Part shown: piece by piece, positions 17,401 through 61,208 of the stretch
How the letters are laid out: every line of letters begins with the position of its first letter
How positions within the stretch are numbered: the stretch's first letter is position 1
Assembly: GCA_963920705.1 (NCBI GenBank)
Contig: OY987232.1
Span: 19,933,442 to 19,997,441 of the forward strand
From: Odiellus spinosus
Taxonomy: Eukaryota > Arthropoda > Arachnida > Opiliones > Phalangiidae
Reading direction: 5' to 3'
Length of the DNA stretch: 64,000 nt
Translations under genes and position numbers: made by a program
The notes under the pieces: generated by a model
What the model saw: the letters and a program-made list of their open reading frames with translations, nothing else
What the model was told of the DNA's origin: nothing
The model's database searches: none

Positions 17401-20400
17401 GTTTCCTTGTACGATAAATTTCTAGCCAGGACGTTTTCATTTATAATGACGTAGGTTTCTTTGTATTTTTTGGATGTAAGAGTATATAGTAGACTTGGTA
17501 GCACAATGATTTTGGGTGTGGTTACACCCTGACAACTTTTTCAATATTTACCTTATAGAGATGCTGGGAACACTCGATTTTTACGACGTATTTCTATACT
17601 AATTGTTTTACAGCGCAATTATTTCATTACGAAACATAAAATTAAATATTTTATGTCATGAATTACCCGTGGAATAACACCTTAACCTTATTCTGAATAT
17701 ATATATTAATTTTTATCCTATATTTTCCTATCATTTCGCTAATTTTTATCCTATATTTTCCTATCATTTCGCTAATTTTTATCCTATTTTTTCCTATAAA
17801 TTAGCTTGATTTTTATCCTATATTTTCCCATAACTTTGCTTAATTTTTTCCTATAAATTAGCTTGATTTTTATCCTATATATTTCCCATAATTTTGCTTA
17901 ATTTTATCCTATATTTTCCTATAATTTAGCTTAATTTTATCCCATACTTTCTAAAATTTCATTAATATTTATTGTAAATTTTCCTATAATTTCGTTAATA
18001 TTTATCCTATATTTTCCTATAATTTCTCTGTTTATCCTATATTCTCCAATAATTTCGCTTAATTTTATTTACCCTATATTATCCTATAATTTCCATTAAT
18101 TTCGTTTAATTTTATCATATATTTTCCTATAATTCCTCCAATTGTATCCTATATATTCCTATAATTTGAAAACTTACTCCTATATATTTTCCATTAATTC
18201 ATTCCTAAATCTCCTATTTTTTCCTATATTGCTCCCATATTTTCGAAGCACCAAAGTTGAATTACCGTTCGATTGTAATATCGATTTATTTTATCCGTAT
18301 TTGTAGTTACAATATTTATTCACCGAAAATAGCGAACCCTATATATAGCAATATATATATAACCATATTTAGACCAATGGGGTAGGGAGTAATATCTCGT
18401 AATCCCTCGCTAGATGAGATATCCTAGACAGAAAATCCTGGCTGACATAATTAAAACACGCGAAGCCAATCTAGTATTAACCCTAATCCAACCAGCTAGG
18501 ACTTATTTTAACAAAAAATAAACCCTTTCTGACTGAACGAAGACGGGTTATAAAGTGCTAGTAAAACCTATTTATTTTACTAACACAACCTGACATTTAA
18601 GCTACGTTCACACTTGATTCTTTCAAACCGTTTCGAATGTTCAAATCGACTCTTCGAGATCTTAGTTGGATGTTTTGATGAAAGATCTACACGGGTGACC
18701 CCAAAATATTATAATTTGACCTTTCCAAAATGGTTCAAAACGGTTTCAAAGTCTCTAGTGTGAACGCGGCTTAAGTCATCCGCAAATAACGAGACGAGTG
18801 AGACACTGTACATTTACCTGGACCAATATTGATAGTATTTAGCTACGTTTTATGGAACAAAGTCATTAAAAAATTCACCGATAGATGGCGAGAGTAAGCT
18901 GTTTCTTTAAAAAGTTACGGACGAACGTAGGGAAATTTTTAAATTATATTTTTACGATGCTTCCCCTTTAAAATCTCTGGTATAATTTTTATTTTGTATC
19001 ACTATGTGTAAATGTCGACTTTATCGTCTAATTTACACCTCATTCGTTTATTAGACCAGATTTTGAATTCATATTACAAATACTACAAGGTATGAGATGT
19101 CAACCGCAATTATAATTTAGTTTTATTTAATATTACAAGGTAATGTTGGTTTTGGCTCCAATGTAAACTAAGGATGATTCTGAGTCGTATGATAATAACC
19201 AGGGTGTCTTTTCCAATTAATCTTCTTTGGTCCGATGAGTTTTCATCATGGGCAAGCGATACGTAGATAAGTTAACGCCCTAAATATGGATTTCAACTCG
19301 CCCCCCTTACTAGCCCATCCGCGATAAACATATACACCTTTATTTACTATTTAAAGTTATATTTTGTTGGGTTGCAAATAAAATAAGTTAGATTATTTTT
19401 TCCGGTTTCTTGAAGAAGACGTTAAATTAATTACTACGTAAGCAAGGCTTATTAAATCTAAAAATGGTGTATGGATTAATTTTGATTATTTCATCTTGCA
19501 TGTGGTCTTGAAATTTCCTGATTATCTTTGTTCAATTTCTCATAATTTAATTGGTGAGCTTGGCTGGCTCAGAGAGATTAATTTCTGTCTACTATAACAG
19601 AGTTGCCATAGGTCAGGGAAAGGTCAGGGAATTTGAAAATGAACCAAAAAAATCAGGGAACTTTAAGATATTTTAAAAAGTCAGGGAATTTAAAGACCTA
19701 TCGAGAAGCCATCAGGAAATTGCGATCATAATCCGCGGATTGGATTCTCAGGTGACGGCGTGTCAGTTGTATAGATTAGAACAAAGATACGCAGGCTGCA
19801 GTTTGGCCAACGCGATTATATAAAACAATAAAAGCTTAATAATTGTGTAGTATTAGCCGAAAAGGTCAGGGAAAATCTCTGGAAAAGGTCAGGGAAAATC
19901 TCTGGAAAAGGTCAGGGAAAAACCTGCAAAAGTCAAGGAATTTCAATCTGAAAAAAACTGTGCCAACCCTGTTAAGTAAATGAAGAGTCCATCCCAATCA
20001 GAGAGTACAATTCATTCCCAGATATAGTAACCATTAAATTATTTATAAGATACTTTATGTACCTAATGAATATTCAGATTGCTTCATTTGCAACCCTACC
20101 ATATTAAGTTCGTATTTTTTTTTATTTCGATCTAGCTGGCATAAGGTTTATCATTTTTTTTTTAATTAGATAATTTTGTCTGACGTCAGGTAATTGTCCA
20201 GAGCAGGTGATGAATTTTTTTCTTCACCTCCTGCCTCTCCCGAATAGAATATTTATCTAATTATGGTACAACTCTTTAGCCCACCCCCAAATATTGTATC
20301 AAAAATTGAACAATTGTCGAGCAAAAATGGTGTAAGTCAAATTTAAGTAATTTGTTAATTACTTAAATTAAAATACTTTAAGGGGGGAAATTAAAGATAT

Positions 20401-23400
20401 TGATTGATGGAATAAATTCTAGATTTTATTTATGAAAAAAAATTTAAATTAATTAACATCAAATTGTGATTAAAATTAAATATGTAATTATTTTTATAGA
20501 AAATTCGAGTATATTGGAACGAAATTTTACCGTCCGATTTCGATGTTTACTCGACAACACATCCGGGTTCCTGGTAAGTTAATTATTATTTAAATTAGTT
20601 TCGTAATTATAAATTTATACAATTTTATTTTAATTAAAATTAGAGATTAGATATTAGGGGTAGAATTAAAGTACTTCAGGGTCAAAATCATAAAACGGAA
20701 GAGCCACCAATGGCTTTATTCGCCGTTTGCACGCCATTTGGACCTCCATCTTTATTAGAAATGCCACAAAAAGATTCCATGTTCAAAAGCAAACATAAAT
20801 TAGATTTAACACTCGTCTCTATGGATCAACGGTAAAAAAACCTAACTAACCTTTAATTGTGATTATATTTAAATTCGACAAACAAATTTAAATTTAAATG
20901 TGGTGTTTTAGTGGGAAACATTTGTTAGGATATACTGATTCGGAAATGACTAATCGTGGGGGTTATGACCTGGTCCATTTTGACGACCTTGCTTACGTTG
21001 CCAGTGCTCATCAAGAGCGTATGTATGCTTTCACAGCTAAATATCATTTTAAAACATCCAAACACTTTGAGTCTACTTCATACAATTTATATAATTATAC
21101 TTTTAAAATCGACTTTTCGTATGAACTAGACTTAACAAGAGTTAGAACACTGCGCTATAGAAATATGTCTGTTTTGGGAGAAAATTGACATTTAGAGACG
21201 CGTGGTGATGTCCAAGTCAGGGGAAAAAGACATATCTCTATAAAGTGCTAAGATCTCTGTTGAACGATGTAGAAATCTGTAATATTGTTAACAGTTTTGA
21301 AGACCGGAGCATCTGGTCTAATCGCGTATCGCCTCGTAACGAAAGACATCAAATGGCAATGGTTGCAAACGAGCGCCCGTTTGGTCTACAAGAACAGCAA
21401 ACCTGATTTCATATTATGTACTCATAGACCATTAATGTAAGTACCATCGTTTCGTTATACCCTTCATCAAACCCATTGTTTAGCAATCCCGCGTTAGGCC
21501 TAATATAATTACGGATATGACGTTAAATTCGGGATACGTCGCGAAGTCACTTGTCTGAAGTTGTCTCTATGGGTGTTGGTACCTTTTTTTCTAATTACAG
21601 TGAGGAGGAAGGCCGCGATTTGCTAGGCAAAAGAACAATGGATTTCAAAGTGACTTATCTCGATGGTGGTCTTGGGGCAGTGACTGATCGTAGTGGCATC
21701 GCTAAGTGGTAATACCACTCTATTTTAACCAAAACCATTCCCCCCAAACCACCACACAATCTTATACGCAAAAAAACATATATTTAACCACCGATAGATA
21801 GTGAAGAAACATATCCTTTGGGTAATTGCGAGCGGGAGTTAACTAGTGACCCATTAGTTCTAATTTCAAACTGACCTTACTTACTCGTTAGAATATGAGG
21901 GGAAATATTTATTCTTAAATTCCAGGGAAGAAGAAGGTCGTGACCTTTTGGGTAAACGTACGATGGATTTCAAAGTTACTTATCTTGACGGTGGTCTTGG
22001 TGCCGTAACGGACCGTAGTGGGTTATTATCCGATAGCGACTTCATTATGAGATGTCAACGAAATCGGCGTTATAAGACTCAAATTCGGGATATTTTAACT
22101 TGTCGTAATAAAAGACCGAAGACGAGTAGTGGTCCGGAGGGTAATTACTTAGATGACGCGAGTGCCGCGAGTACTTACAACAGCGTCTACACGTACACGG
22201 CTGAAAACATTAACGGTTTAACGCCATACGCGGCGGCTGCGGCAGCCGTACCTCAAAATATCTTCACCGCCATTGATAACACCAGGTTTTTAAGTCCAGA
22301 TTTTTTACACTACCGACATTTGGCGACTGGGGCTTACTACCCTGATTACGGTCATCATACGGCGCCACAATACGGTGGAAATGGTTTTTTAGACATTACT
22401 AGCGCGGCTGCCAGAACTTGTTTTACGACGTATCCCCCCGAAACTGGTCATCAATTAAAAGATGATAAGATATACTCATGCCAATTAGATACCACCAAGT
22501 TTAACGGAGATACTTCCAGACTTTTACCCCAATTATCTCAGATATCTCAGATATCTCAATTACCACCTCCCCCGCAAATGAAACCTTCGTGTTGCGAAGC
22601 CTACGATCCAGGGGCTTCTTTACGTAGTTGTCTGATGAGCGCTACGAGTACCGGTAATATTCAACCGTTATTACCACCATCTTTAGATCGAGAGAGTAAG
22701 ATTACCGCGGAACAAATTACCAACTGTCGTAATTTAAATTTCGGACATTTTCAAACGGTAACTTCGTCGCCTAATCATCATCATCATCATAATAATAATC
22801 ATAATAGTCCCGATTGCGTTAAGCCTAAATCGAATAATATTTCGCTGAGTCATCATCGCGATAAAGACGATAAAAGTACGATTTTAATGCGCGTGACGTC
22901 ATCGTCGTGTGATAACTCCATCGTCATGTCCAATAATAACTCGACTTATTCGAGTAACGACCCGGTAACTAGGCAAAGCGTTTTAATGTGGGGTAATTCT
23001 ATGTCACGGTCGAATAGCGCGAATTCCATGTCCGGTAATGGTGGTAATTCGAACGCTCAAAAATACGGTTCTTCGACACCAAATTCAGTTTCGCCGTCTT
23101 CGTCGTCGCGTCACGATGGTATGACGACACCTACGGATAAAACGTCGATAGAATTGAGTGGTAATGGTGCCGGTGGTGATAGTTCCGGTGTCGTGACCAG
23201 TTGTAAATGGGGTGGCAGTGGTGGTAACGCCGCTACTACGCCTAAATCTCATTCCCCACAAAGTAGTACTAGTCCAGCCAGTGGTAAGGTAGCCCCGTCA
23301 GTATCATACAACGCTAACTACGCCTCCGAAGCCATTAATGAGGTAAATACTAGTTTTTTTTGTATAACCGGAAAATTTTAACCAGTTTACTGGTTAATAA

Positions 23401-32300: not shown

Positions 32301-35300
32301 CAAAATTAAGTCGATTTAAAACTAATTTAAAATTGACATAAATATCTGAATTAAGAAACGTATTTGATAAACTATGTTGTATAATCAAAATGGTCTCTTG
32401 AGAATTCTAAGCACACGACGAGACTTATGATAACTTAAACTACAATTTAAATCTAATCATCATTAAATTTAATCAAAATTAAACGCTTTTATAGTTAATT
32501 AAAAAATGATATTTAGACAGTATGACAGAAAAGATATCATTTTTTCATTAACTATAAAGGCATTTAATTTTGATTAAATTTAATGATGATTAGGTTTAAA
32601 TTGTAGTTTAAGTTCTCCTCTGTCTCGTCGTATGATTAGATTAATCAAGAATTTAGTCCATTTTGATTATTTTAGATTTTCCCGTAGATCATTCCTTAAT
32701 TCAGACAGACATTTTGCCAATTTTAAAGCGATTTTAAATCGACTTAATTTAGATTAATTTTTATAATAATTATGTTTAAATTGTAGTTTAAGATCTCTTC
32801 TACCTCGTCGTACGTTAACATTCCCCGTAAATTTGACCTATCACTTATTGTCCGCTTCCTGTTCTGTAGCTAAGCTTGAGGTTAAACAAGAATCCAAGTT
32901 TTTCTTATAAAAGGCTAGTCTTACCCCTTTTGAGAATCGTCTATTTTTTGTCCTTTGAGCAGTTGATTTGACCGACGTTTAGCATGCGTGTATTATAATC
33001 GTTTTGCAATGTCTCGTGAACCGTGGGAACGTACCTTTTATCTTTAAATTAGCCGATATGGTTCCCGGGGATGACAATATATACGAAGAAGTGGATCATA
33101 TGGCGATCCACGGAGGTCATCACCACCCGGAGAACGGTCCTTGTTGTCAAGGCGAGGAATTGAGCGACCGTCTGAGCTGGAGTAGTACAAATTTCCTAGA
33201 AAACAATCTAGCTCATTCTGGGAGCGAACTCGAAGACGAAGAACCTGGTGCTAGTACACCGGGAGGTTTCGCCGCTAGAATAATTAGCCTTAAAGGGGGA
33301 AAGAAAAGAACCAAGAAGAAAGATTCCGACGTTAGTTTTTTCGGACATTAAAACAACCGTCAATTAAATCTAATTGGGTTTGTTCAATTTAAATTAAATT
33401 AGAGCATCACTAGCGGCTTTACGAGGTGGTTTTCGACGAGGAGAAAAGAATATGAACTCGAAAAGATGAATAAATTAAATATTAAACCACCAAATGGTAT
33501 GTTAAAGTAAACCATTTTGATTTTTCTAAAATTAACCATCTTCGCTTTTATTTGACAGAAGATAATTACGGAGATATTAAAATGTCTAAAAAACAAAGAC
33601 CGCCTCTGACGTTACCTCCACCAATATCTGGTTTAAATCACGAACAGGTTAAACGTCGTCTTATCGTTCAAAGTATCGTTGATAGCGAAAATAACTACGT
33701 CAATTCGTTACAAAGGCTTATAAAGGTTCGTTCTTTGATTTTTTTACAAGATTAGAGTCGTAGAAGCGTCATAGACTTGATATTGAGTCAATATTGACTT
33801 TGACACAACGTGATGGAACCTCCGATTAACTTTTATCTAAAAATGTTTGTCTATCCTTAAACTTTTGGTATTTTAGGATTACAAAAGGCCGTTAGAGGAA
33901 AGTAGCCCTCCCGTTATTAGTCCGAGTAAACTTAGTATCATGTTCTATCGAGTGGAACAAATTCTTCAGTGCCACAGTATCTTCGGAATAGCTTTAACCC
34001 AATGCGTCAGAGAATGGGATTATGCCGAAAAGATCGGAGACGTTTTCGTCGCATCGGTAAGTCAATTTTATTTGCTCTTTAGTGATGTCAGTGTCCCCCG
34101 ACTTAGCCTCGAATTCCCTTATTAATTTTAAAGATGTTTATTGTTCAACTTCTTAATTTAAAAATTCTAATCCTACAAATGCGCGTACATTAGCTTGGTT
34201 TACAACTTTCTTCTTCATTTTATGATTTTTGGATCCTCTGCTTGTGGGGTTTCTATTTCTTGTACACCTGGTCCAAATCCCTGATCTTGTACAGTTTGCG
34301 CTTCCTGGCTTTGTCCAAATTCTGTCCCTCGACCAGTTAGTCCAAATTCTGTCCCTCGACCAGTTAGTCCAAATTCTGTCCCTCGACCAGTTAGTCCAAA
34401 TTCTGTCCCTCGACCAGTTAGTCCAAATTCTGTCCCTCGACCAGTTTGTCCAAATTCTGTCCCTCGACCAGTTTGTCCAAATTCTGTCCCTCGACCAGTT
34501 TGTCCAAATTCTGTCCCTCGACCAGTTTGTCCAAATTCTGTCCCTCGACCAGTTTGTCCAAATTCTGTCCCTCGACCAGTTTGTCCAAATTCTGTCCCTT
34601 GATCAGTTTGTCGACCCATCCCTTGACCAGTTTGCCAGCCTGTTCTTTGACCAGTTTGTCGTCGCATACCCAGACCAGTTTGTCTTCCCATACCTTGACC
34701 GGTTTGTCGCCCGGTCCCTTGATCAGTTTGTCTGGCTGTCCCTTGATCAGTTTGTCTGGCTGTCCCTTGATCAGTTTGTCTGGCTGTCCCTTGATCAGTT
34801 TGTCTGGCTGTCCCTTGATCAGTTTGTCTGGCTGTCCCTAGATCAGTTTGTCCTTCAGTCCCTTGACCAATTAGTCCATCTGTCCCTAGATTGCCTTGTC
34901 CTTCAGTCCCTTGACCAATTAGTCCATCTGTCCCTAGATTGCCTTGTCCTTCAGTCCCTTGACCAATTAGTCCATCTGTCCCTAGATTGGTTTGTCCTTC
35001 AGTCCCTTGACCAATTAGTCCATCTGTCCCTAGATTGCCTTGTCCTTCAGTCCCTTGACCAATTAGTCCATCTGTCCCTAGATTGGTTTGTCCTTCAGTC
35101 CCTTGACCAATTAGTCCATCTGTCCCTAGATTGCCTTGTCCTTCAGTCCCTTGACCAATTAGTCCATCTGTCCCTAGATTGGTTTGTCCTTCAGTCCCTT
35201 GACCAATTAGTCCATCTGTCCCTTGGTCAATTTGCGCATCTGACCCTAGTTCACTTTGCTGTTCCTCTCCTTGCACTATAAATAGTATAATTAGTATTTT

Positions 35301-38300
35301 AAATTTGTTTTAAATTTAATTTACATTACTTACCTACAAACATAGCCATGACAAATACTACGCAAATCTAATAATAAAAGAAAATACAAATTAGAAATAA
35401 ATTGCCATAAAATTTATTACTAAAGGTCAGGAAAGTTTAAAATTAGACCTAAAAGGTTAAGGAAGTTTAACATTTGGCCTTTAAAGGTCAGGAAAGTTTA
35501 AAATTCTTCCTATTTAGGTCAGGAAAGTTTGAAAATAGATTAAAAATCATTTTAAATTTAAAATTCTACGAAATGGTCAGGAAACTTTAAAATTTCACCA
35601 AAAAAGATCAGGAAAGATAAAAATTTGACCAAAAAAGGTCAGGAAAGTTTAAAATTTGACCAAAAGACCATAAAATAGATTAAATTTAGATGAAATAGCA
35701 ATTCTAGATAAAAATGGACAAAATGGTCATGAATTCTAAAGTATTCCAAAAAAGGTCAGGAAAATTAATCAAAAAATTTCTACTCACAATTTTGAAGCGC
35801 ATACTTAAAGATGTTTTCTTACTCTTTAAAATCAAATAATTGTAAATAAAAATTCAAACACCAGTCAGCTTTTATATAGTTAGCGAAAAAACAAATTCTT
35901 GGGAATATTTAGGTCGAAATTGATACGGATAATATCCCATATTATTCTAATATAACTCGGTAGTACTTAAATGTTGGCAGATATGGACAATTTCAGATGA
36001 TTTACAAGTTTACCAAAAAATATCCGATTTCAAAATACTTCTATCAGAATGACTCCCCAATTTTAACACAAAAAGCAATTAGGCGCAGCGCAACTGTTTA
36101 GAATCCTTGCAATCTTGATATTATCTTTTTAATAGTCATTTATTTTGACTATTAATTTAATCACAATCGATTATTTTTAATCATAATTTTTATTTTTAAT
36201 CATAATTATTATTTTTAATCAATCCTTTAATCTTAATCACAATCTTTTAATCTTAATCACAATCTTTTAATCTTAATCACAATCTTTTAATCTTAATCAC
36301 AATCTTTTAATCTTAATCACAATCTTTTAATCTTAATCACAATCTTTTAATCTTAATCACAGTCTTTTAATCTTAATCACAGTCTTTTATTAATTTTAAT
36401 CTCAATCTAACCAATTTTAATCGCAATTTAAATTACACGTAAGAATTATTCGTCGTTTAAACTGAATAGTTAAAAAGTTTAGGTTTAATTTTGTTTTCTA
36501 GTTTTCGAAAGCGATGGTGCTAGATATTTACAGCGATTTCATCAACAATTTTTCCATGGCAATGGATACTGCCAAACAGGCTTCGAAAAATAAATCAGCT
36601 TTTGCCGAATTTTTAAAGGTTCGATAAAATCTTAAATCTTTAAAAATTCGAGGCATTAAAATTAATTAATTTTAATTATAAAAATTAATTAAAATTAGGC
36701 GAAACAAGTTACTAGTCCAGATAGATTATCATTTTTTGGTTTAATGGTGAAACCAGTTCAAAGATTTCCGCAATTCATATTGCTTTTGCAGGTAATTAAT
36801 TAATTAAATTAATTAATTAATTAATTACGTTGCAATGGAGTTTGATTCTTCTTGCGCGTTAGGATCTTTTAAAACACACTCCCGGTGGTCATCACGATCG
36901 TATGTCATTACAATTAGCCCTGACGCAGTTAGAACTCTTAGCGGACACTCTCAACGAGCGGAAAAGGGAATCCGAACAATATCACGCCGTCAGGGAAGTT
37001 ATGAAACATTTGGGAAATAAATTTGCTCTCAAATCACTCAGTGACGGTCATCACTTTTTACTCAGACAAGATGACGTCATTCAGTTGGTGAGCCGAATAC
37101 TTTAAAGATCCATTTCTTCTTACGCTTCATTTGTCTTTGCTTTTCTTCGCTCTGTGGCTCATAATTATTTAAATTATTAGATTAGATAATTAAGGTTTGA
37201 GTCTAAAGATTTTCAGATTTTAGTCCAAATGTGGTGTAAAGATAGTAAGATTTTTGTAATCATCTTAATTTGATAATTAGTTGGATAGTTGTTTAATTAG
37301 GCAAATAGATAATTGGTAATTATAATTTTACTGTAACATACATTATTACATAGTTCATAGATAATTAGATAATCAGATTTAATAATTATAAGTAGATAAT
37401 TTAATAATTTATAAAAGTATTTATATTTAAGAAGATAATTGGATAATTAATTGGCAAATAATTAATGCGCTTTTATCTAACATGAAACTTTTACGCTTTC
37501 TTAATGCTTCTTAATTACGGACTGAGGTAATCTTCCCTTAATCCATCTCCATTTTCGTTAATTTTGATTAAAATCACTAACGAATGTACTTATCTCGCTT
37601 AATCCTCAGGATATGGACCAGAATGGAATGGTCATCAAGTCAAAAAGTCGTAGAATTTATCTTCTGAATGATCTTCTAGTCTGCGTATCAGTTTCCCCCA
37701 GGTATTTAAAGTTAAATTACACATCCGCCAAGGCTTAGATATTTTAGCCAAGGCTTAAACTGTCGATATTTTAGCCAAGGCTTAGCTATGGTTCTTTAAC
37801 TAAAGCGTAGAAATTTTATCATAAACTTAAATCTTAGGTCTACGGATGGCGTGAATTCGACTGAAAGATTTAGTTTGAAGTGGGCAGTCCCTTTGAACGA
37901 AGTTGAAGTTGAGGAGGACGTAGCTCCAGCCACCAAAAATTTAATGGCTGTTTCTGGTCGAACGAGAAACGCTCCAAACAGATCGAGTTCCGGTTCCCTC
38001 GGAGAAAGAAACTCCGGTTCCTTAGCGGTTCAGGCTTTATATGATGACCTTAGCGACCTCGTGCATGACCTGGAAGTCATGAGTAGGATTAGTTCCCTCG
38101 TGGGAACGCTCAGAAGACCGTATCCCGTAAGTCAGACACGCTTTTACATAGAAATGAGTCCAAAATGTAACGGGTGTGCTTTAGGGTTTATCGAATAATA
38201 CGGTTCAAGAAGTTTCGTTGAGTATCCAAGAAGGTATTAGGAAAAAAGACGACGAGATCACGTTGCTGGACAGTTGTTGCCTTCAATTGGTTCTTCCGGT

Positions 38301-41300
38301 CAAACCAAAAGGAAGCAAAGAAGTACTTTGCTTCCAAATGATGACACCCGGAATTAAACTCGATTGGATCACTGATTTAAGGCTCGCCAAACTGGCCATG
38401 GGTAAGTAATTCATCACTTTCAATAATTACTTAGATTTAGGCCTTATTTAGCAGACGAACTTTGCTATTTTGGGACTAGTTTTAGCAGACGAACTCTACT
38501 TATTCCCAGTTAGATTGAGGCCTTTCTAGTCTAGTTTGAGCAGATGGAACTCTGGTTATAACGAAATTTACCTTAAATATTAACTTTTTTCGTTACAACC
38601 TGTTGGGTTTTCAAAGCCAAGGCTTAGCTACTATTTCGTGTCCATTTATTTGTAGCTACTTAAACCCTCAACCCCTTGCACTCTTTTTAATTTAGACGCG
38701 AGTAACGCTCCATCTTGGGACGTCCAAGAACAAGAGAAACGTCCCAGCAGCAAAATGCCTCTCTTCGTTAAAACATTCCCAGTACATTCGGGAGATATCA
38801 ACTCCGAAGTCAAATGCGGTTGTTATTACGCCGTTTGTTCGTCCGATGGTTCCGGGGGACATTGCCAAAATTTGGTTTGTCTGGTTAGCGGTGACGGGAT
38901 CAATAGTCATATCGTCGTCATGACTATACGTCTAACGCAAGTCAAACGTATTGGCGGTGTGACGTTGAACGAAGTTTGTATACTATCGTTGGAAGCCGCC
39001 CCATCTTTCGGGACTGAAATGGGGATAGCTGGTGCCGGACCGAGTTATTATCCGCAACCGAGTCCTCAACCGAGCGCCACCGATGACAGGGGGAGTCAAG
39101 AAGGATTGGGTGGTGAACAAAATGAAGCCTTTGCTGGTGGATTGGAAGAAACATTGTGGGTTGGGACTCAGGATAGGAGGTAAGTCAATTTTTATAACGT
39201 ACTTGTCCCCCTAAAAGTAATTGTCTTGTACTTGTAGAATATTACTTGTGGATGGAAGACATCCTGAAGAATGGCAGGAATTAGGCGAAGTCTCTGTAGC
39301 GGCCCCCGTTTTACACATTAAATACTTATGTAGACACGTTTTTGCCGCTTTGTCAAACGGAAGCGTCCTCATATTTCGCCGAAATTCCAGTAAGTCCCCT
39401 GTTTTTTATTAGTTACTAGGATTCTTGGTAAATTTGTTGGATTTAGGCGGGATATGGGATATGGAAGGTCCCCAAATCGTTACGCTTGGTACCGAAGCCG
39501 TAACTTGTTTGCTTCCAATTGGACAATCCCTGTATTGCGCTTGCGAATCCAAAGTATGGGTAATTGACGCGCCATCGAGGGAAGTTCAGAGGAGTTACTC
39601 GTTAGGTCAAGGTCACGAGGGTGAAGCCAATTTATTGGCTCATTCGGGAACCGGGTTATGGATAGCTTTGCGCAATTCCGCCACTATTTGCTTATATCAC
39701 ACGGAAACTTTTCATCATTTGCAAGATATCAATATCGCCGCTAACGTTAACAGACTTTTAGCCGGTAATCCAATCTACGGTAAGTTTAACTCCCTTTTAC
39801 TTTCCCCTTAATCGTTTGTGATCCAATTTCCCTTCGAACGTCAAATTTAGCTCATTTACAAGAAACTCCGATAACTCTCCCAGAGGTTCACGTGACGTCA
39901 TTAATGGCGACGCGAGGTCTTTTATGGGTGGGAACGAACGTAGGGGTTGTGGTTACGATTCCAATGCCTCGTCTGGAAGGAGTTCCTATTATAACTGGTC
40001 GTAGCAACGTCGCCTACCACGCCCACCTTGGCCCAGTCTCCTTTCTATTAAGCCTTCAACAGAGAACGGTCGTAACGTCATCGACCGTTCCTTTGCCTTG
40101 CGACAGTGAACCAGTCGTTTCGGCTCCTGGTTCTCCCAACGAGAACAATGTCAATGGAGAAAACTTAACATCCAAAAATAGTCAAGATGGCGTCGATGTT
40201 AAGAGCGACGTTGAGTTACTAGAAAGCGGCACTGGACCTCATTCCAAAGTTCATAAACAGAAATCCGATTCTTTGTTACCATCTGGATGGCTTGGAAGAA
40301 AAATAATGGGCAAGTTCCGCGTTAAATTAAGATTTTATCGGTATATTTAATAAATTCAATTAACAGGTCAAGGGCCAAGGCCTAGTAACACCATAAACTC
40401 TGTTGGGGAAGTTCATATGTCAGGGGCGAAAACATTACCACGAGGAATGACCTTTTGCCGACCAAATTACGTCGCCACTCCTCATCAAACTATGCCTGAT
40501 AGTGATAATGATGTTTACGGTTTGTACGCTGATCTGATGAACGTACAGGATTACGAGAAAGACAGTCAAGAGAAGCTCTACGAAAGGTTGAATCACAGTG
40601 ATCCTGAATTAGTTCATTTTCACTTGGCAACCCTCGATAGAAGGTCAGTTTATTTCGTTTTTTTCTTTGCATGTAATTAAGCCTAAACTAATTATGTAGG
40701 AGTATAGATAAAATTTGCCATAATTAATCTTGGGGACTTAAATTAATTTAAAATACTAGTTTTTGTAGACCACAAATTAGTTTATATATCGTTTAAATTA
40801 GCGTATTCCACTGTCTAGAGTAACAGCCAACCAGCCATGTGGGGTCTGCGTAATAATTTTCAAAACCTTAAAGGTTTCGCGAAAAGTAAAAAAAATAAAA
40901 AGTAAAATATTAAGCTACAAATCAATCTTACTCAGATAGTAGGCTTAACAAGGATTGATGATGATAGTATTAATATTTCATCGTTATTGAGTCTCCAATC
41001 TAGTTCTAAACATCTTACTCATGGAATTAAATGTGATTGGCTGCAGACTCGTTAACGACGAAATATGAAACGATGTCCGTGGATCCTTGTTAAGCCTACT
41101 TTCGTAGTAGGTTAATTTGTAGCTTTTCTTTTTAAAATTTTTTTAGTTTTCGTGAAATCTTTTAAGGTTTTGAAAGATATTACTCTGACCCAACATGGCT
41201 GGCTGGATTAAGAATTAGTCTAGTTCAGAGCTCTTAAAGTTAGATAAAGCCCACTAAACGTTTATTTACGATCGTAAATCGACCGATTCAGGCTTCAAAG

Positions 41301-41799
41301 TAAATCGGGTCGTCCTAGATCGTGGGATCTTTCAAATATGGCCGTATCCGAAGATTCGGATTCATCGGCAGTTTACGATCCGTCGTCATTAGCCCCTTCG
41401 AGTATATCTTGCCCCGAATCTCGTACGATACAACAACAAGGCTTAGCGTCGCAAACTCAAGCGATTATAATTCCCCCTCAACCGATCTATCAGCAAAACC
41501 TCCGCGCCACCCATCACCATAATCAACAACCTAAAATTCAAATACAAAATCAACAAAAAGCTCATACGATGGCTATGACCAATACGGCCGTTAACGCGGC
41601 GATGGCGAAGAACCAATCAAACGCTAGAGCCATGCATCGTAGATTACCGAAGCATTTAATCGATCCCGCGCAAAAAACTGTCCTCGTATTAACGGGTGGG
41701 TCCGGTTACGCTAATTGGAGGTGGTGCGAAAGAGATTTAGCTAACGATACGAATCGAGGCGGAGATTCTCACGTTATTCTATGGGAGATGAAACTTTGA
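29385..41799 (+). CDS. ARHGEF10: ARHGEF10-type Rho guanine nucleotide exchange factor, complete
   Basis: Nineteen exons, all phase-consistent, total 5079 bases (1692 residues): 29385-29984, 30755-31121, 31406-31552, 33053-33330, 33403-33496, 33559-33725, 33877-34056, 36502-36618, 36699-36791, 36863-37087, 37610-37701, 37838-38126, 38185-38401, 38696-39179, 39238-39389, 39447-39779, 39851-40309, 40367-40643, 41292-41799. The N-terminus is low complexity with a Lys run near residue 86 and an IYEEV motif. The DH domain spans about 523-710 ([54 protein letters not shown]), then a PH-like region, then a WD40-like C-terminus ([42 protein letters not shown]). By family it activates RhoA-type GTPases. 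The exon 3 donor (GGAG|GTTGGT) is weak but the phase fits. Intron 17 begins with GC. Confidence 0.92.
30300..30650. mobile_element. Foldback element, family C, with an internal tandem duplication
   Basis: Left end AGGCTTAACAATGATGCATT pairs with AATGGATCCTTGTTAAGCCT. The right half (CCAGTCTCCAACCAAT ... GGAGATTTGTTAAAAATTTG ... GGATCCTTGTTAAGCCT) occurs twice in tandem, at about 30370-30490 and 30507-30640. Lies in RhoGEF intron 1. Confidence 0.8.
31553..33052 (+). other. ARHGEF10: RhoGEF intron 3 with repeated inverted segments
   Basis: From about 31860 to 32860 related segments alternate in orientation. GATCTCTTCTGTCTCG, TTTAAATTGTAGTTTAAG, TAAATCGACTTAATTTTGAT and GACCTATTTTGGTCTATTTT appear on the + strand and again as complements (for example 32185-32340 and 32400-32560). 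The transcript could form several long competing hairpins. No coding sequence. Confidence 0.75.
34120..35848 (-). CDS. Nested antisense gene for a secreted Gly/Gln/Thr-rich repeat protein
   Basis: A gene on the - strand lying wholly inside the RhoGEF intron 34057-36501. Coding exons are 35802-35788, 35367-35334 and 35275-34215 (stop at 34217-34215), total 1110 bases, 369 residues. Exon 1 gives MRFKI; exon 2 gives [11 protein letters not shown]; exon 3 continues VQGEEQQSE. This makes a textbook signal peptide with cleavage likely after VQG. Splice sites are good (ATT|GTGAGT, TTATTATTAG|ATT, GTAG|GTAAGT, TTTATAG|TG) and phases match. The mature part is three repeat blocks: about eight 16-residue units ([15 protein letters not shown]), about six 8-residue units (QGTARQTD, then diverged ones), and about ten 9-residue units (GTEFGQTGR). 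A non-repeat tail ends DPKIIK. I do not recognise a family. It looks extracellular (silk, mucin or glue-like), but that is inference. Confidence 0.75.
34137..34142 (-). terminator. Poly(A) signal AATAAA of the nested gene
   Basis: AATAAA on the - strand, about 73 bases past the nested gene's stop at 34215. It lies inside the host intron and about 80 bases from the host exon end at 34056, so the nested transcript need not overlap host coding sequence. Confidence 0.55.
34315..35245. repeat. Compound minisatellite with 27-, 24- and 48-bp units
   Basis: On the + strand: about eleven 27-base units (GTCCAAATTCTGTCCCTCGA...), about six regular 24-base units (TTGATCAGTTTGTCTGGCTG...) with diverged ones between, then about eight 48-base units (CAATTAGTCCATCTGTCCCT...). 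All units are multiples of three, which keeps several frames open on both strands, including a 350-codon + frame. They encode the repeat blocks of the nested - strand gene. Confidence 0.95.
35420..35770. repeat. Degenerate GGTCAGGAAAGTTTAAAATT repeats
   Basis: About eight scattered copies of AAAGGTCAGGAAAGTTTAAA and variants, within intron 1 of the nested gene. The GTCAGGRAA word recalls the elements at 19598 and 60921, but the rest does not match them. Confidence 0.7.
35869..35878 (-). promoter_or_regulatory. TATA box of the nested gene
   Basis: TATATAAAAG reads on the - strand from 35878 to 35869, about 67 bases upstream of the nested gene's ATG (35802). Transcription would start about 30 bases downstream, near 35845, leaving a leader of roughly 40 bases. 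Confidence 0.6.
36180..36400. repeat. 20-bp tandem array
   Basis: About nine near-identical copies of CTTTTAATCTTAATCACAAT, just upstream of the RhoGEF exon at 36502 and upstream of the nested gene's promoter. Confidence 0.9.
40310..40366 (+). other. ARHGEF10: GC-AG intron in the RhoGEF gene
   Basis: The exon ends ATGG and the 57-base intron begins GCAAGT. The acceptor is attaacag at 40366. The phase (G + GT gives Gly) and the protein continue correctly into [16 protein letters not shown] is the usual form of a functional GC donor. Confidence 0.75.
40820..41215. mobile_element. Foldback element, family C, long-arm copy in the last RhoGEF intron
   Basis: Outer arms CCAGCCATGTGGGG...TTTCAAAACCTTAAAGG and CCTTTTAAGGTTTTGAAAG...CAACATGGCTGGCTGG (written as read on +, approximate) pair over more than 100 bases. 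Inner ends TAGGCTTAACAAGGATTG and GGATCCTTGTTAAGCCTA match the 30300 element. Confidence 0.8.
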
Positions 41800-47682: not shown

Positions 47683-50600
47683 ATGATCTACGTATGGAGA
47701 TGGTTATTCATTGCCATATTTTTATTTATTCTAACTTTTGGTTTAAAAGCCTGCGCTGTCGCAGTTTTATCATCTCTAGCGTGTCTTTCTGGGTAAGTTT
47801 AGATTAAAACAAACACTTTAATTTGTGACTAACATGGGCTGAACTTTCAGGGTACTCCTGTCACTATACAGCCGGCGCAAAAAGCGTATTGATGCTAATA
47901 TGAGGTCATATTTAATATCAACTTCAAACTTGGCTATACCTAGTCCAGTTTGTTTGACAAACTCAGCTCAGATTACTTTAAACCCTGTTATAAGAACCCG
48001 TAAACACGATAAAAGATTAACGGGAGCTATAATCATTGATGAACCTCTTCAAGAGGTTTTATTTTACGCTTTTCGCGATTATATCTACGCTTGGTATCAT
48101 CAGTTATCAGGGAATGAAGATTTTCCTTTTTATATTCGCGAAACTGTTCAACAAGTAATAATCGCCAGCGCTAATCGGTCTAAAGAAGTGGAATGGGTTC
48201 ATTACGCTACCACTAGACTCGTCGACGACTTTGCTTCGCACTTGAGACTCTTTCGAAAAGCTCAAGCCAAGCTCAAAGAAGAGAAACTCAATGCTGGTAA
48301 GTTTTTACCTTCAAATCTATTTCATATTTTCGTTCAATTTGTTAAGTTTAACTCTGTAATTAAGCGCCAGCGACGGAAGGCAGCTCTCCTGTTCCTAAAT
48401 CAAACTTATTGAGCTATTTTTTCCAAATGGAAAATTCGATGGAGCGTAATCTCTGTCGAGATCTTGTTTGTACATCTTCATCTCATTTAAATAGTAAGTT
48501 ACTTCGGTTAATTTTAAATTAATATCTCCCTAATTATAAATTATGTTTTCTAGCCTATCTTCAAGATTTAGCGCAAGTTTTACTATACTTAGTGCTTCCT
48601 CCTGAAGATTTTAATAATAAAGCGCTCAGATTTTTTATCAGGGTTTGTATTTTCTTATTTTTAATCGTTTTACTTTTAAATCATATAGTTTTGTGCTAAG
48701 CCTTGGCTAAATGACTGACCAAGGCTTAGCAGAAGTTTAGTTAAAAAATGTAATTTATTTCAATTTTTAAAGGAAATCCTAGTCAATTGTGTGTTATTGC
48801 CAATGATATCTTTGTTTACGGATCCCGATTACATTAACCAAATGATTGTCTGGCTGGTGAGTTGCTTTTTTGTGATTAAGCCAATTTACAATCAATTATC
48901 GAGTATTGAACAATTTAATCATTCACGAATTTGAGTACTCGTCTATTACCATAAGTAATTAACCCTAATAAGTAATGAAGCACTCTATAATTGTGAATTT
49001 TAAGTGACAAGGCTTAATGAGAGTTCACTTAATTTCGAGTAATAGTTTTCACCAATCGATTAATTTGATTAATCGTATAAATGAACAGTGTAAAGAAAGT
49101 TTACCAACGCCGGAAGCTTTCTTGATGGTTTTGCGGACTACAGACTCTGCTGATGAACTCCAAGCCGTTAAGGAACGCGTTAGTCACGAGATTGCCGTTT
49201 TAAGATCGAAAGATACGGGAGGAGATTTTGGTTTGTTAAATTATTATTTAGTTTAATTATTTCGTTAATTAAGAATAATTTTAATTTATCTCTGGAAGAT
49301 GCTGAAATTAAACAACAATTAAGCAGCTTAATCTACGTTAAGAAAGCGGTCGACGCTCGCTTACGTCGTCTGCTGGAAGGAAATCTAGATACTGATTCCA
49401 GTGGTATTCCAACCGTAAGTTTTTTTTGGTAGAATTTAGATGAAGATCGAGTGTTTCAAAGCTTCATTCTTGATAGGAAATTGATTGGAAGAAATTAACG
49501 GAGCCAGGGACGAGACTCTTTATGCTTCCATTCGATGTCATCCTCACTAATAACATCGCTCTTCATTATTTCATTGGCAAGTTACTCATTAAAGATAATT
49601 TGGCTCTTAATTTAATTTCTATCCTTTGACATCAGAGTTCATGACGAATAAAAATGCTCAAGGCTTAGTTTTCTTCTATCACGCCATTGAGGTAATAATT
49701 AAATTAACGTCTTGAAAGAAGCGTTTATATTAATTGTGTAATTTAGGGATACAAAGTATCAGCGGAACAGCAATTATCATCGGTTCATTTAGCCCGCATT
49801 ACTAAAGTATCTGAATTTGACTCCACCACCCCCAATTCTTCTTCATTGGCTCCGATCTGTCCTTCAATCGACCTTGAAGGTTTGAGAGACGCGGCCCAAC
49901 ACATTTACGAACTATTCTTATCGGAGAAAGCTTCTCTTCGGGTAAAATTAGACGACGCCCTCTCGAAGAAATTGGTTCAAAGATTAAAGACGGAGAAACC
50001 GAACGAAACGTGGTTTGACGACGTTCAGACGCGCGTCTATGAAATGATGCAAGAAGATCAGTATTTAGGAACCTTTCGAAGAAGTTCCTCTTACGTTAAA
50101 TTACTCGCGGAACTCGATTTGCTCAAAGATCAAGGCAGATCTGACGAGGATGGTGAGTTAAACGAGCACATTTCGATTAATTTGGTCCTTAATTGCAAAT
50201 TGTTTCAGAAATATCTCTGGGATACAAAGCCGGTGTCAAAAATGTAAGAATTAACGAATTAACTCTGATTTTTTTTAAACGTGATTACTCGTTTTTAGCC
50301 TTCCGACGACGGTTCTTTGAGCCAATTTGATAATTTGAGCTTAAGTTCTTCGGAAGCGGACGAAGATGGAGTGTCAATTGGTAGCGGAGGTGATCGCGTT
50401 TCTGATCTAGAAGCCGCGCAAGCGGTGGAAGAGATTAATCACGAGGATTTAATAATCACGGCGACCATTTATAATACGGGGATTATGCGCAATAATGGTA
50501 GTCAATACGCGGTTTACGCCATATCCGTTATCATTCAGAGAATTTCTACGGGTGGAACTGAGAAGTGGTGCATCGTCAGACGCTACTCGGATTTCCATTC

Positions 50601-57539: not shown

Positions 57540-57990
57540 GACTTTATTCTTTGTCCATTCCTTACTAGACTTTAGTATTTGTCCACTTATTACTTGACTT
57601 TAGTCTTTGTCCATTCCTTTCTTGACTGTCTTGGTCCATTACTTGCTATATTTTGCCTTGGTCCATCCTAACTATACTTTGTCTTTGTCCATTCCTTACT
57701 AGACTTTACTCTTTGTCCATCCTTATCCTAGACTTTGCCTTTGTCCATTCCTTACTAGTCTTTGCCTTTGTCCATTCCTTACTAGTCTTTGCCTTTGTCC
57801 ATTCCTTACTAGTCTTTGCCTTTGTCCATTCCTTACTAGTCTTTGCCTTTGTCCATTCCTTACTAGTCTTTGCCTTTGTCCATTCCTTACTCGACTTTGC
57901 CTTTGTCCATTCCTTACTAGACTTTGCCTTTGTCCATCCTAACTAGTCTTTGTCTTTATCCATCCTAATTAGATTTTGACTTTTTCCATC
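57540..57990. repeat. 27-bp minisatellite
   Basis: About fifteen copies of a unit containing CTTTGCCTTTGTCCATTCCT, most 27 bases with some 20-24 base variants. The 27-base stretch keeps a + frame open (repeated FAFVHSLL) but the irregular units break frame, and there is no signal peptide or splice context. Confidence 0.9.
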
Positions 57991-59124
57991 CTTATTTAAT
58001 TTTGTCTATTTCTGCCAACAAGATATTTCGATTCAAATGGATGGCTTATTTAATTATCATTTTATATTTGACCTTGAAAACGTCGTCTCTTTGCGTAACT
58101 ATCGTTATCGTACGAACCAGCTTGTTTTCATTATTTTAACAAGAGCAAAAACAAATATTAGTCGATGTAGTTTTGAAGTGATAATGAAACACGTAAAGAG
58201 TTTAGTAGATTTAAAATAGTTTCTCATTAGTCTATAAAAACAGTTAATTAACAAAGCTTTAATAATTATTTATCAAAGTAACAGCGTAATAGCGTCGAAA
58301 GTAGTCTTTACAAATAGTTCGTATATCTGGGGACGTGGAGAGAAGAGAGATAGTTTTTCTTCGCTCTAATCTATGCTAGAAAAAATATAACCACATCCAA
58401 ATTTATTTTAGCAAATATTTTAGGACCCTTTTTTGTTTGATTCGAACAAATTTTCAGTCATTTTTATCCACGTTTTACATTGGGGTGGTTTAGTCTCGAC
58501 CATCCCAGGGATTTTAAAAAGGTACAAGGGAATTGAGGGTTAAAAATCAATGTCGGAAGTGGGCTTTTGTTCCCTCGGCTACACGACTCGGTAATATTTA
58601 GTATCATAAGTGTATTATATAATAATAAGTCTGCCATCTTGTCGTATTGAATAATATAAGCCATAATATTCTCTTGAATCAGAACAAGATTCACCATCTT
58701 TAATATGTCATTTACTTAAGATCCTGGCGTTCGTAAGCGATCTCTAACGGCAAATAGAGGTTAAATACGTCAAGGTATTTGAATAACAATGATATAGTCT
58801 TAGCCAATTAGTGTGGCTTTAGTTTTAACGTAATAAGTTCGCAAAAACATGATTTTTGAATTTATCAATCTTTTGCTTGAGTTTTGTTTTTAAGCACCTG
58901 TCTCAGTGTCTGTCTGTATTCTTTCGCGCATGCGCTTAATCTCTTTTCATATCTATTTTGTTGTCCTTAACACGGTCTCTACTTCTTCAAGGCAACCCAT
59001 ATAGATTTAAAAGCATGGAGAACAAATACCCTATAGGAGTACCCATTATGGGTTGAATATTTTACCTCGTGGTAATGGTAAATAATGTTGGTAAAATTTT
59101 TGGAGGGCTTTAGTTTGATGGTCA

Positions 59125-60920: not shown

Positions 60921-61208
60921 CAGGGTTGCCACGGGTCAGGGAAAAGTCAGGGAATTTGAAAATGAGCCAAAAAAGTCAGAGAATTTTAAGATAGTTTAAA
61001 AAGTTTGGGAATTTAAAGATCTTTCAAGAAACCAGGAAATTGCGATCATTATCCGCGGATTGGATTCTCAGGTGACGGCGTGTCAGTTGTATAAATTAGA
61101 ACAAAGATACGCCTGCAGTTTGGCCAACGCCAAAATTGGTAGTATTAGTGGAAAAGGTCAGGGAAAAACCTGCAATTTGAATCTTAAAAAACTGTGGCAA
61201 CCCTGCCA
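60921..61208. mobile_element. Non-autonomous element with CAGGGTTGCCA/TGGCAACCCTG ends, copy 2
   Basis: Inverted ends CAGGGTTGCCACGG and CTGTGGCAACCCTG. The inside has GTCAGGGAA words and ATTATCCGCGGATTGGATTC, continuing with GGTGACGGCGTGTCAGTTGT, all shared with the 19598 element. A 71-codon ORF overlaps it (61060-61275), but its reading includes element ends and shows no known domain. Confidence 0.8.

Follow-up and report, generated by a model that had tools for sequence, protein, structure and literature searches.

A putative antisense gene for a secreted repeat protein in an intron of an ARHGEF10-like gene of the harvestman Odiellus spinosus

An intron of an ARHGEF10-like gene in the chelicerate Odiellus spinosus probably houses, on its opposite strand, a real, independently transcribed and lineage-restricted gene, and the predicted product is a secreted, low-complexity protein of structural or adhesive character. 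The gene lies at 34120-35878 of the stretch of DNA analysed, termed the window, which comprises 64,000 nucleotides of a 443-Mb genome (GenBank assembly GCA_963920705.1, contig OY987232.1, forward strand; C8:19933442-19997441); all coordinates given here are those of the window. In the proposed pathway, RNA polymerase II would transcribe the minus strand gene, and the signal peptide would route the chain to the secretory pathway, with cleavage near the VQG/EE junction. The mature protein, built of octads and nonads rich in Gly, Thr and Gln, would then serve extracellularly as a hydrated polymer prone to beta structure, structural or adhesive in role and possibly a gland glue, a coat or a cuticle-type product. 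The repeats may have grown in blocks through in-frame duplication of units.

A first, sequence-only reading of the window had listed a TATA box, an ATG, two short exons, a repeat exon and an AATAAA signal on the minus strand, and when the gene model was rebuilt from that strand every piece was found where it had been placed (table 1). Three exons of 15, 34 and 1,061 nt together encode a product of 369 amino acids, and both introns combine GTRAGT donors with CTAAT branch-like motifs. The same reading had located the gene in the intron that divides the DH domain of the host, and this is borne out: the flanking plus strand exons splice into a Pfam RhoGEF domain (E 4.6e-43). As modelled, then, a complete protein-coding gene sits inside the intron of another gene, and this intron, at 2,445 bp, compares with a median of 80 bp for the 13 introns of the host. 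The TATA box TATATAAAAG occurs as a single exact copy when both strands of the window are counted, and the AATAAA lies about 80 bp from a 5′ splice site of the host gene.

Table 1. Components of the nested gene model and the host intron that contains it.
Feature	Position	Strand	Remarks
Host intron splitting the DH domain, ARHGEF10-like gene	34057..36501	+	2,445 bp; longest of 13 assembled host introns
TATA box TATATAAAAG	35869..35878	-	ends 67 nt 5′ of the A in the start codon
Exon 1, coding part, ATG CGC TTC AAA ATT (MRFKI)	35788..35802	-	15 nt; ATG at 35802
Intron 1, GTGAGT...TAG	35368..35787	-	420 bp; phase 0; contains 31-bp minisatellite 35422-35665
Exon 2, hydrophobic core of signal peptide	35334..35367	-	34 nt; sequence model
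Intron 2, GTAAGT...TAG	35276..35333	-	58 bp; phase 1; CTAAT branch-like motif
Exon 3, end of signal peptide (VQG), repeats, tail	34215..35275	-	1,061 nt; TGA at 34217-34215
AATAAA polyadenylation signal	34137..34142	-	starts 73 nt past last base of stop

The evidence that carries this interpretation is a signal peptide that is formed only once the exons are spliced, and consists of MRFK, a hydrophobic core and VQG. The core reaches 3.25 on a crude, home-made score of the n-, h- and c-regions, and places an N-terminal signal peptide on the model. All models with zero to two introns were searched in the 650 bp upstream of the repeat frame, either under strict rules (GTRAGT donors, and YAG acceptors with CTAAY upstream) or under permissive rules (any GT, any YAG). 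Under the strict rules, the real upstream DNA yields exactly one signal-peptide model, which is the one proposed. Dinucleotide shuffles yield any model in 4 of 2,000 cases and none of equal hydrophobicity (0/2,000), and 2,404 other, overlapping segments of the window give three models, all intronless, none of which has a core of at least 2.5. Permissive rules allow some model in 100 of the 2,000 shuffles and 254 of the 2,404 segments; a core of at least 2.5 together with a TATA box is met in 4 shuffles and 1 segment. A 30-nt stretch that spans the exon 2 donor is unique in the window when up to three mismatches are allowed.

A further comparison was made with open repeat frames elsewhere in the genome, comprising 123 frames (121 from 20 array loci and two from the window) that were read in all six frames and are repetitive, at least 150 codons long and preceded by at least 650 bp of upstream DNA; frames within one array are not independent. 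The 20 loci are half of 40 places that were picked through weak similarity to the 369-residue protein. A strict spliced signal peptide precedes only one of the 123 frames, namely that of the gene at 34120-35878. With permissive rules some model is found for 21 of the 123 and a core of at least 2.5 for five, including this gene, which alone attains 3.2. The sequence-only reading had held that chance would rarely give such a peptide; shuffles, window segments and open frames agree on this point, and the spliced signal peptide is real evidence for a gene, exceeding chance.

Individual splice sites were scored with matrices trained on the host gene, the donor matrix being built from 12 of the 13 host donors (a GC donor was dropped) and the host's own scores not being leave-one-out. 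The intron 2 donor ranks first among the 88 GTs of the host intron and the intron 1 acceptor second among its 163 AGs, both with scores within the host range, while the intron 1 donor (GTGAGT) ranks 11th of 88 and the intron 2 acceptor 51st of 163. With a short matrix and leave-one-out scoring, the intron 1 and intron 2 acceptors obtain 4.2 and 2.9 (ranks 18/163 and 52/163), both inside the host range of 0.2-8.0.

Exon 3 is composed of 27 octad units and 11 nonad units, followed by a unique tail of 28 residues. The octads begin with one GSDAQIDQ, continue with 16 alternating units that make up eight 48-bp doublets, and end with five identical copies of GTARQTDQ and five diverged singles; the nonads are of the GTEFGQTGR type, and the final one diverges beyond GTEFGQ. 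Unit lengths of 48, 24 and 27 thus follow one another, and the frame is kept at every change of unit. The GC content of the exon is 0.48, compared with 0.25 in intron 1 and the 3′ untranslated region and 0.45 in the host coding sequence, a contrast that is not specific because many other arrays of the genome are GC-rich too. Frame and substitution analyses were applied to 14 hand-chosen rows out of 67 tandem-repeat rows. Over the 11 distinct octads, codon choice comes closer to that of the host gene in the proposed frame (0.077) than in any other of the six, the runner-up (0.034) being a frame with six stops. Among the five diverged units and GTARQTDQ, it also has the lowest ratio of nonsynonymous to synonymous change (dN/dS-like, 0.35), and the second-lowest (0.38) belongs to a frame with five stops. 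Codon usage speaks for the proposed frame and so, weakly, do the substitutions; an excess of third-position differences among units is suggestive only.

Long open arrays are not confined to this locus. When the 369-residue protein was compared with its own genome, 104 of the 105 matches were weak (E 8e-16 to 6e-4) and fell in 40 other places. Long open tandem arrays were present in all 20 of the places fetched; some exceed 1,000 codons, and many are open in several frames and on both strands. At least six of these loci (L023, L026, L029, L030, L034 and L037) have more than 1,000 open codons each, and L037 more than 2,000, mostly in units of eight or nine codons; several of these very long arrays have many stop-free frames on both strands. 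A 27-bp repeat encoding SKRGSLLGQ (L014 and L018, and also L025 and L026) recurs on C8, C18 and C9, and the identical array ends of L014 and L018 resemble those of a mobile or duplicated unit. Inside the window, a 27-bp array at 57549-57994 was considered as a paralogue and rejected, as no frame is stop-free throughout; it is a non-coding counterpart.

At the DNA level, a search of the genome with exon 3 found its own locus only, using a method that skips simple repeats and common words; for this reason the lone match is not proof of a single copy. By the same method, the DNA from the promoter to the start of exon 3 gave 63 other matches, all at query positions 133-493 and inside intron 1, where the minisatellite (31-bp, CCTGACCTTTT type) is of a kind dispersed in the genome. 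Short arrays at 19859-19940 and 60942-61020 have a GGTCAGG-like or GTCAGGG motif, as does the intron 1 minisatellite. Insertion by a transposon was also considered and rejected: seven inverted-repeat pairs of 14-26 nt lie in the host intron, none of which frames the gene as terminal repeats. The sequence-only reading knew no family for the protein, and the searches uphold this, with no Pfam family at E<=0.1 and no homologue by full length or by the ends; a single match in the PDB is not significant (E 0.09). Orphan status is nevertheless weakly supported, because the best full-length match of the host gene itself is only 56% identical, and these negatives would fit a product that is not widely shared rather than one unique to the species. 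Literature searches returned no paper on this gene, which is unnamed and could not be targeted by them.

Several results weigh against the interpretation as a functional gene. A long open repeat frame is unsurprising in this genome, and since long open minisatellites are common there, the open state of the repeat exon carries little weight as gene evidence. The strict splicing rule is partly post hoc, as its first form (pyrimidine content plus a branch window) gave no model even at the real site and was then relaxed, and under permissive rules 8 of 2,000 shuffles and 10 of 2,404 segments yield a core as hydrophobic as the real one. On the host-trained matrices the intron 1 donor (2.3) lies below the lowest host donor (5.8) and the intron 2 acceptor (-2.9) below the lowest host acceptor (5.9). 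The TATA box and AATAAA are weak evidence taken alone: a looser box, TATAWAWR, falls within 70 nt with a chance of about 0.06, and AATAAA within 80 nt with a chance of about 0.16. When all 11 distinct octads are taken together, two of the six frames have a lower dN/dS-like ratio than the 0.66 of the proposed one, namely a frame with stops (0.61) and the stop-free plus strand frame (0.65), and the third-position excess has a column-shuffle p of 0.055 in the diverged block and 0.20 over all distinct units. The full-length protein has no homologue at E<=0.001 among 7,997 candidates scored, in a database without close relatives, and its unique ends (366 letters, repeats as X) match none of four candidates at E<=10. 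Confidence of the AlphaFold model is low, the mean predicted local distance difference test (pLDDT) score being 45.9 for exon 3 and 61.9 for its first block, and the structural role would rest on composition. The earlier claim of a complete gene therefore stands in part: the evidence best supports a gene that is nested in antisense orientation and encodes a secreted repeat protein, and completeness is unproven, with two of four splice sites scoring low and promoter and polyadenylation signals that come cheaply.

These points bear on what else the locus could be. It is unlikely, on balance, that the array is a non-coding intronic minisatellite that is open by chance, its signal exons, TATA box and AATAAA being coincidences in AT-rich DNA. 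The weak matches to open arrays at 40 other places, the long frames in all 20 that were fetched, the lack of a homologue, the cheap signals and the two poor splice sites all suit such an array, as does the plus strand, which is likewise open (ORF, open reading frame, at 34229-35281; 350 residues, hydrophobic). Chance does not readily account for a strict spliced signal peptide in one of 123 open frames and in none of 2,404 other segments when an intron is required, nor for a proposed frame that has the best codon usage and, in diverged units, the lowest dN/dS-like ratio. It is still less probable, though consistent with the absence of homologues, with a DNA search that finds only the locus itself and with the many open arrays that provide raw material, that the gene is real and transcribed, and at the same time young (de novo), untuned and of no fixed function, its product being noise secreted from a captured minisatellite; the synonymous-leaning change among diverged units hints weakly at constraint, and apparent youth may reflect how few relatives are sampled, given the distance of the host's best match. 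Very improbable, too, is use of the array as an alternative exon by the plus strand RhoGEF gene: the open plus strand frame would place the repeats inside a DH domain that is complete from the flanking exons alone, and its codon match to the host is -0.187, compared with 0.077 for the proposed frame.

The product of the nested gene contains 98 Gly, 60 Thr, 53 Gln, 3 Pro and 3 Ser in the whole chain of 369 residues. Secretion is predicted because the signal peptide is present, and if cut after VQG the mature part would be acidic (isoelectric point about 4.3), cysteine-free and about 350 residues in length (35.7 kDa). A beta-solenoid fold of the antifreeze type was also considered. AlphaFold, run with no alignment, gave regular short strands in the block of 48-bp units (pLDDT about 60-70) and left the rest unstructured. 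A Foldseek search with the exon 3 model had a best E of 0.17, with none of 259 matches at E<=0.001, and many of the 50 non-significant matches shown are what we take to be beta-helix proteins. The sequence-only reading had proposed a silk, glue, mucin or cuticle-type protein. No spidroin N- or C-terminal domain was found (0 Pfam families at E<=0.1), a Pfam search of the product gave no chitin-binding or cuticle domain, and three Pro and three Ser, despite the 60 Thr, do not make a Pro/Thr/Ser mucin tract; all four options are still guesses. Judged by composition, the product would most likely act outside the cell, as a hydrated polymer prone to beta structure or as an adhesive.

The host gene was assembled over 33582 to 41799 on the plus strand. 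Among the best 120 of 1,846 matches, its top relatives are from Centruroides vittatus (56% identity), spiders and Tachypleus. In a quick tree of 13 chosen relatives, which includes only three ticks and leaves out mites and harvestmen, it falls, on a long branch and with an unstarred support of 85, beside scorpion, spiders and horseshoe crabs and apart from the ticks. Elsewhere in the window, PXA (E 1.6e-18) and RGS (E 3.1e-10) Pfam domains on the plus strand at 47843-50247 mark what is presumably a sorting-nexin-13/25-like gene. A plus strand open frame at 21864-23381 (505 codons) has His/Asn/Ser-rich tracts and no Pfam match, and we guess that it is perhaps an exon of a transcription factor. 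No RNA family at gathering score and no tRNA was found across the window.

The fresh point is that, in the same genome, a single array carries gene signals and many other open arrays lack them; array capture is therefore directly testable. A tentative proposal is that open 24/27-bp minisatellites form a reservoir of repeat coding sequence, from which a promoter and two very small exons for a signal peptide captured this array de novo inside an intron, giving a new secreted structural protein. Should relatives turn out to have the array before the signal exons, a secreted protein would be documented as arising step by step, in the way reported for the antifreeze glycoproteins of cod. The locus is a test case for the origin of secreted repeat proteins, with the signal-less open arrays of the genome as controls. 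Such a gene could be missed or masked by annotation based on plain ORFs or homology.

Spider silk and glue proteins are, like this product, repetitive in composition. Spidroins and aggregate spider glue (PMC4753498) are also secreted by a chelicerate, as the product is predicted to be; in contrast to spidroins, the product of 34120-35878 has no spidroin domain (Pfam, E<=0.1) and only 369 residues. The glycine-rich cement proteins of ticks (PMC2901319) are also Gly-rich, secreted adhesive candidates in a chelicerate, but the full-length search with this protein gave no sequence match to them, and the quick host-gene tree with its three ticks does not group the species with ticks. The nested arrangement itself is familiar, since intronic genes in antisense orientation form an established class; in Drosophila, about 6% of genes are given as intronic (PMC3786989). 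An example is 2mit in tim2 of Drosophila (PMC3786989), likewise a protein-coding gene in an intron on the opposite strand; 2mit is experimentally studied, whereas the gene in O. spinosus encodes a repeat protein without known relative and is known from sequence alone. Among the systems compared, the closest architectural parallel is the antifreeze glycoprotein gene of gadid fishes (PMC8622921), in which exon 3 holds a long block of repeats with the signal-peptide region on its 5′ side, as in the model proposed here. The gadid repeats are Thr-Ala-Ala/Thr-Pro-Ala tripeptides rather than octads and nonads, and a de novo origin, with slippage proposed for their expansion, is what that paper reports for the gadid genes themselves.

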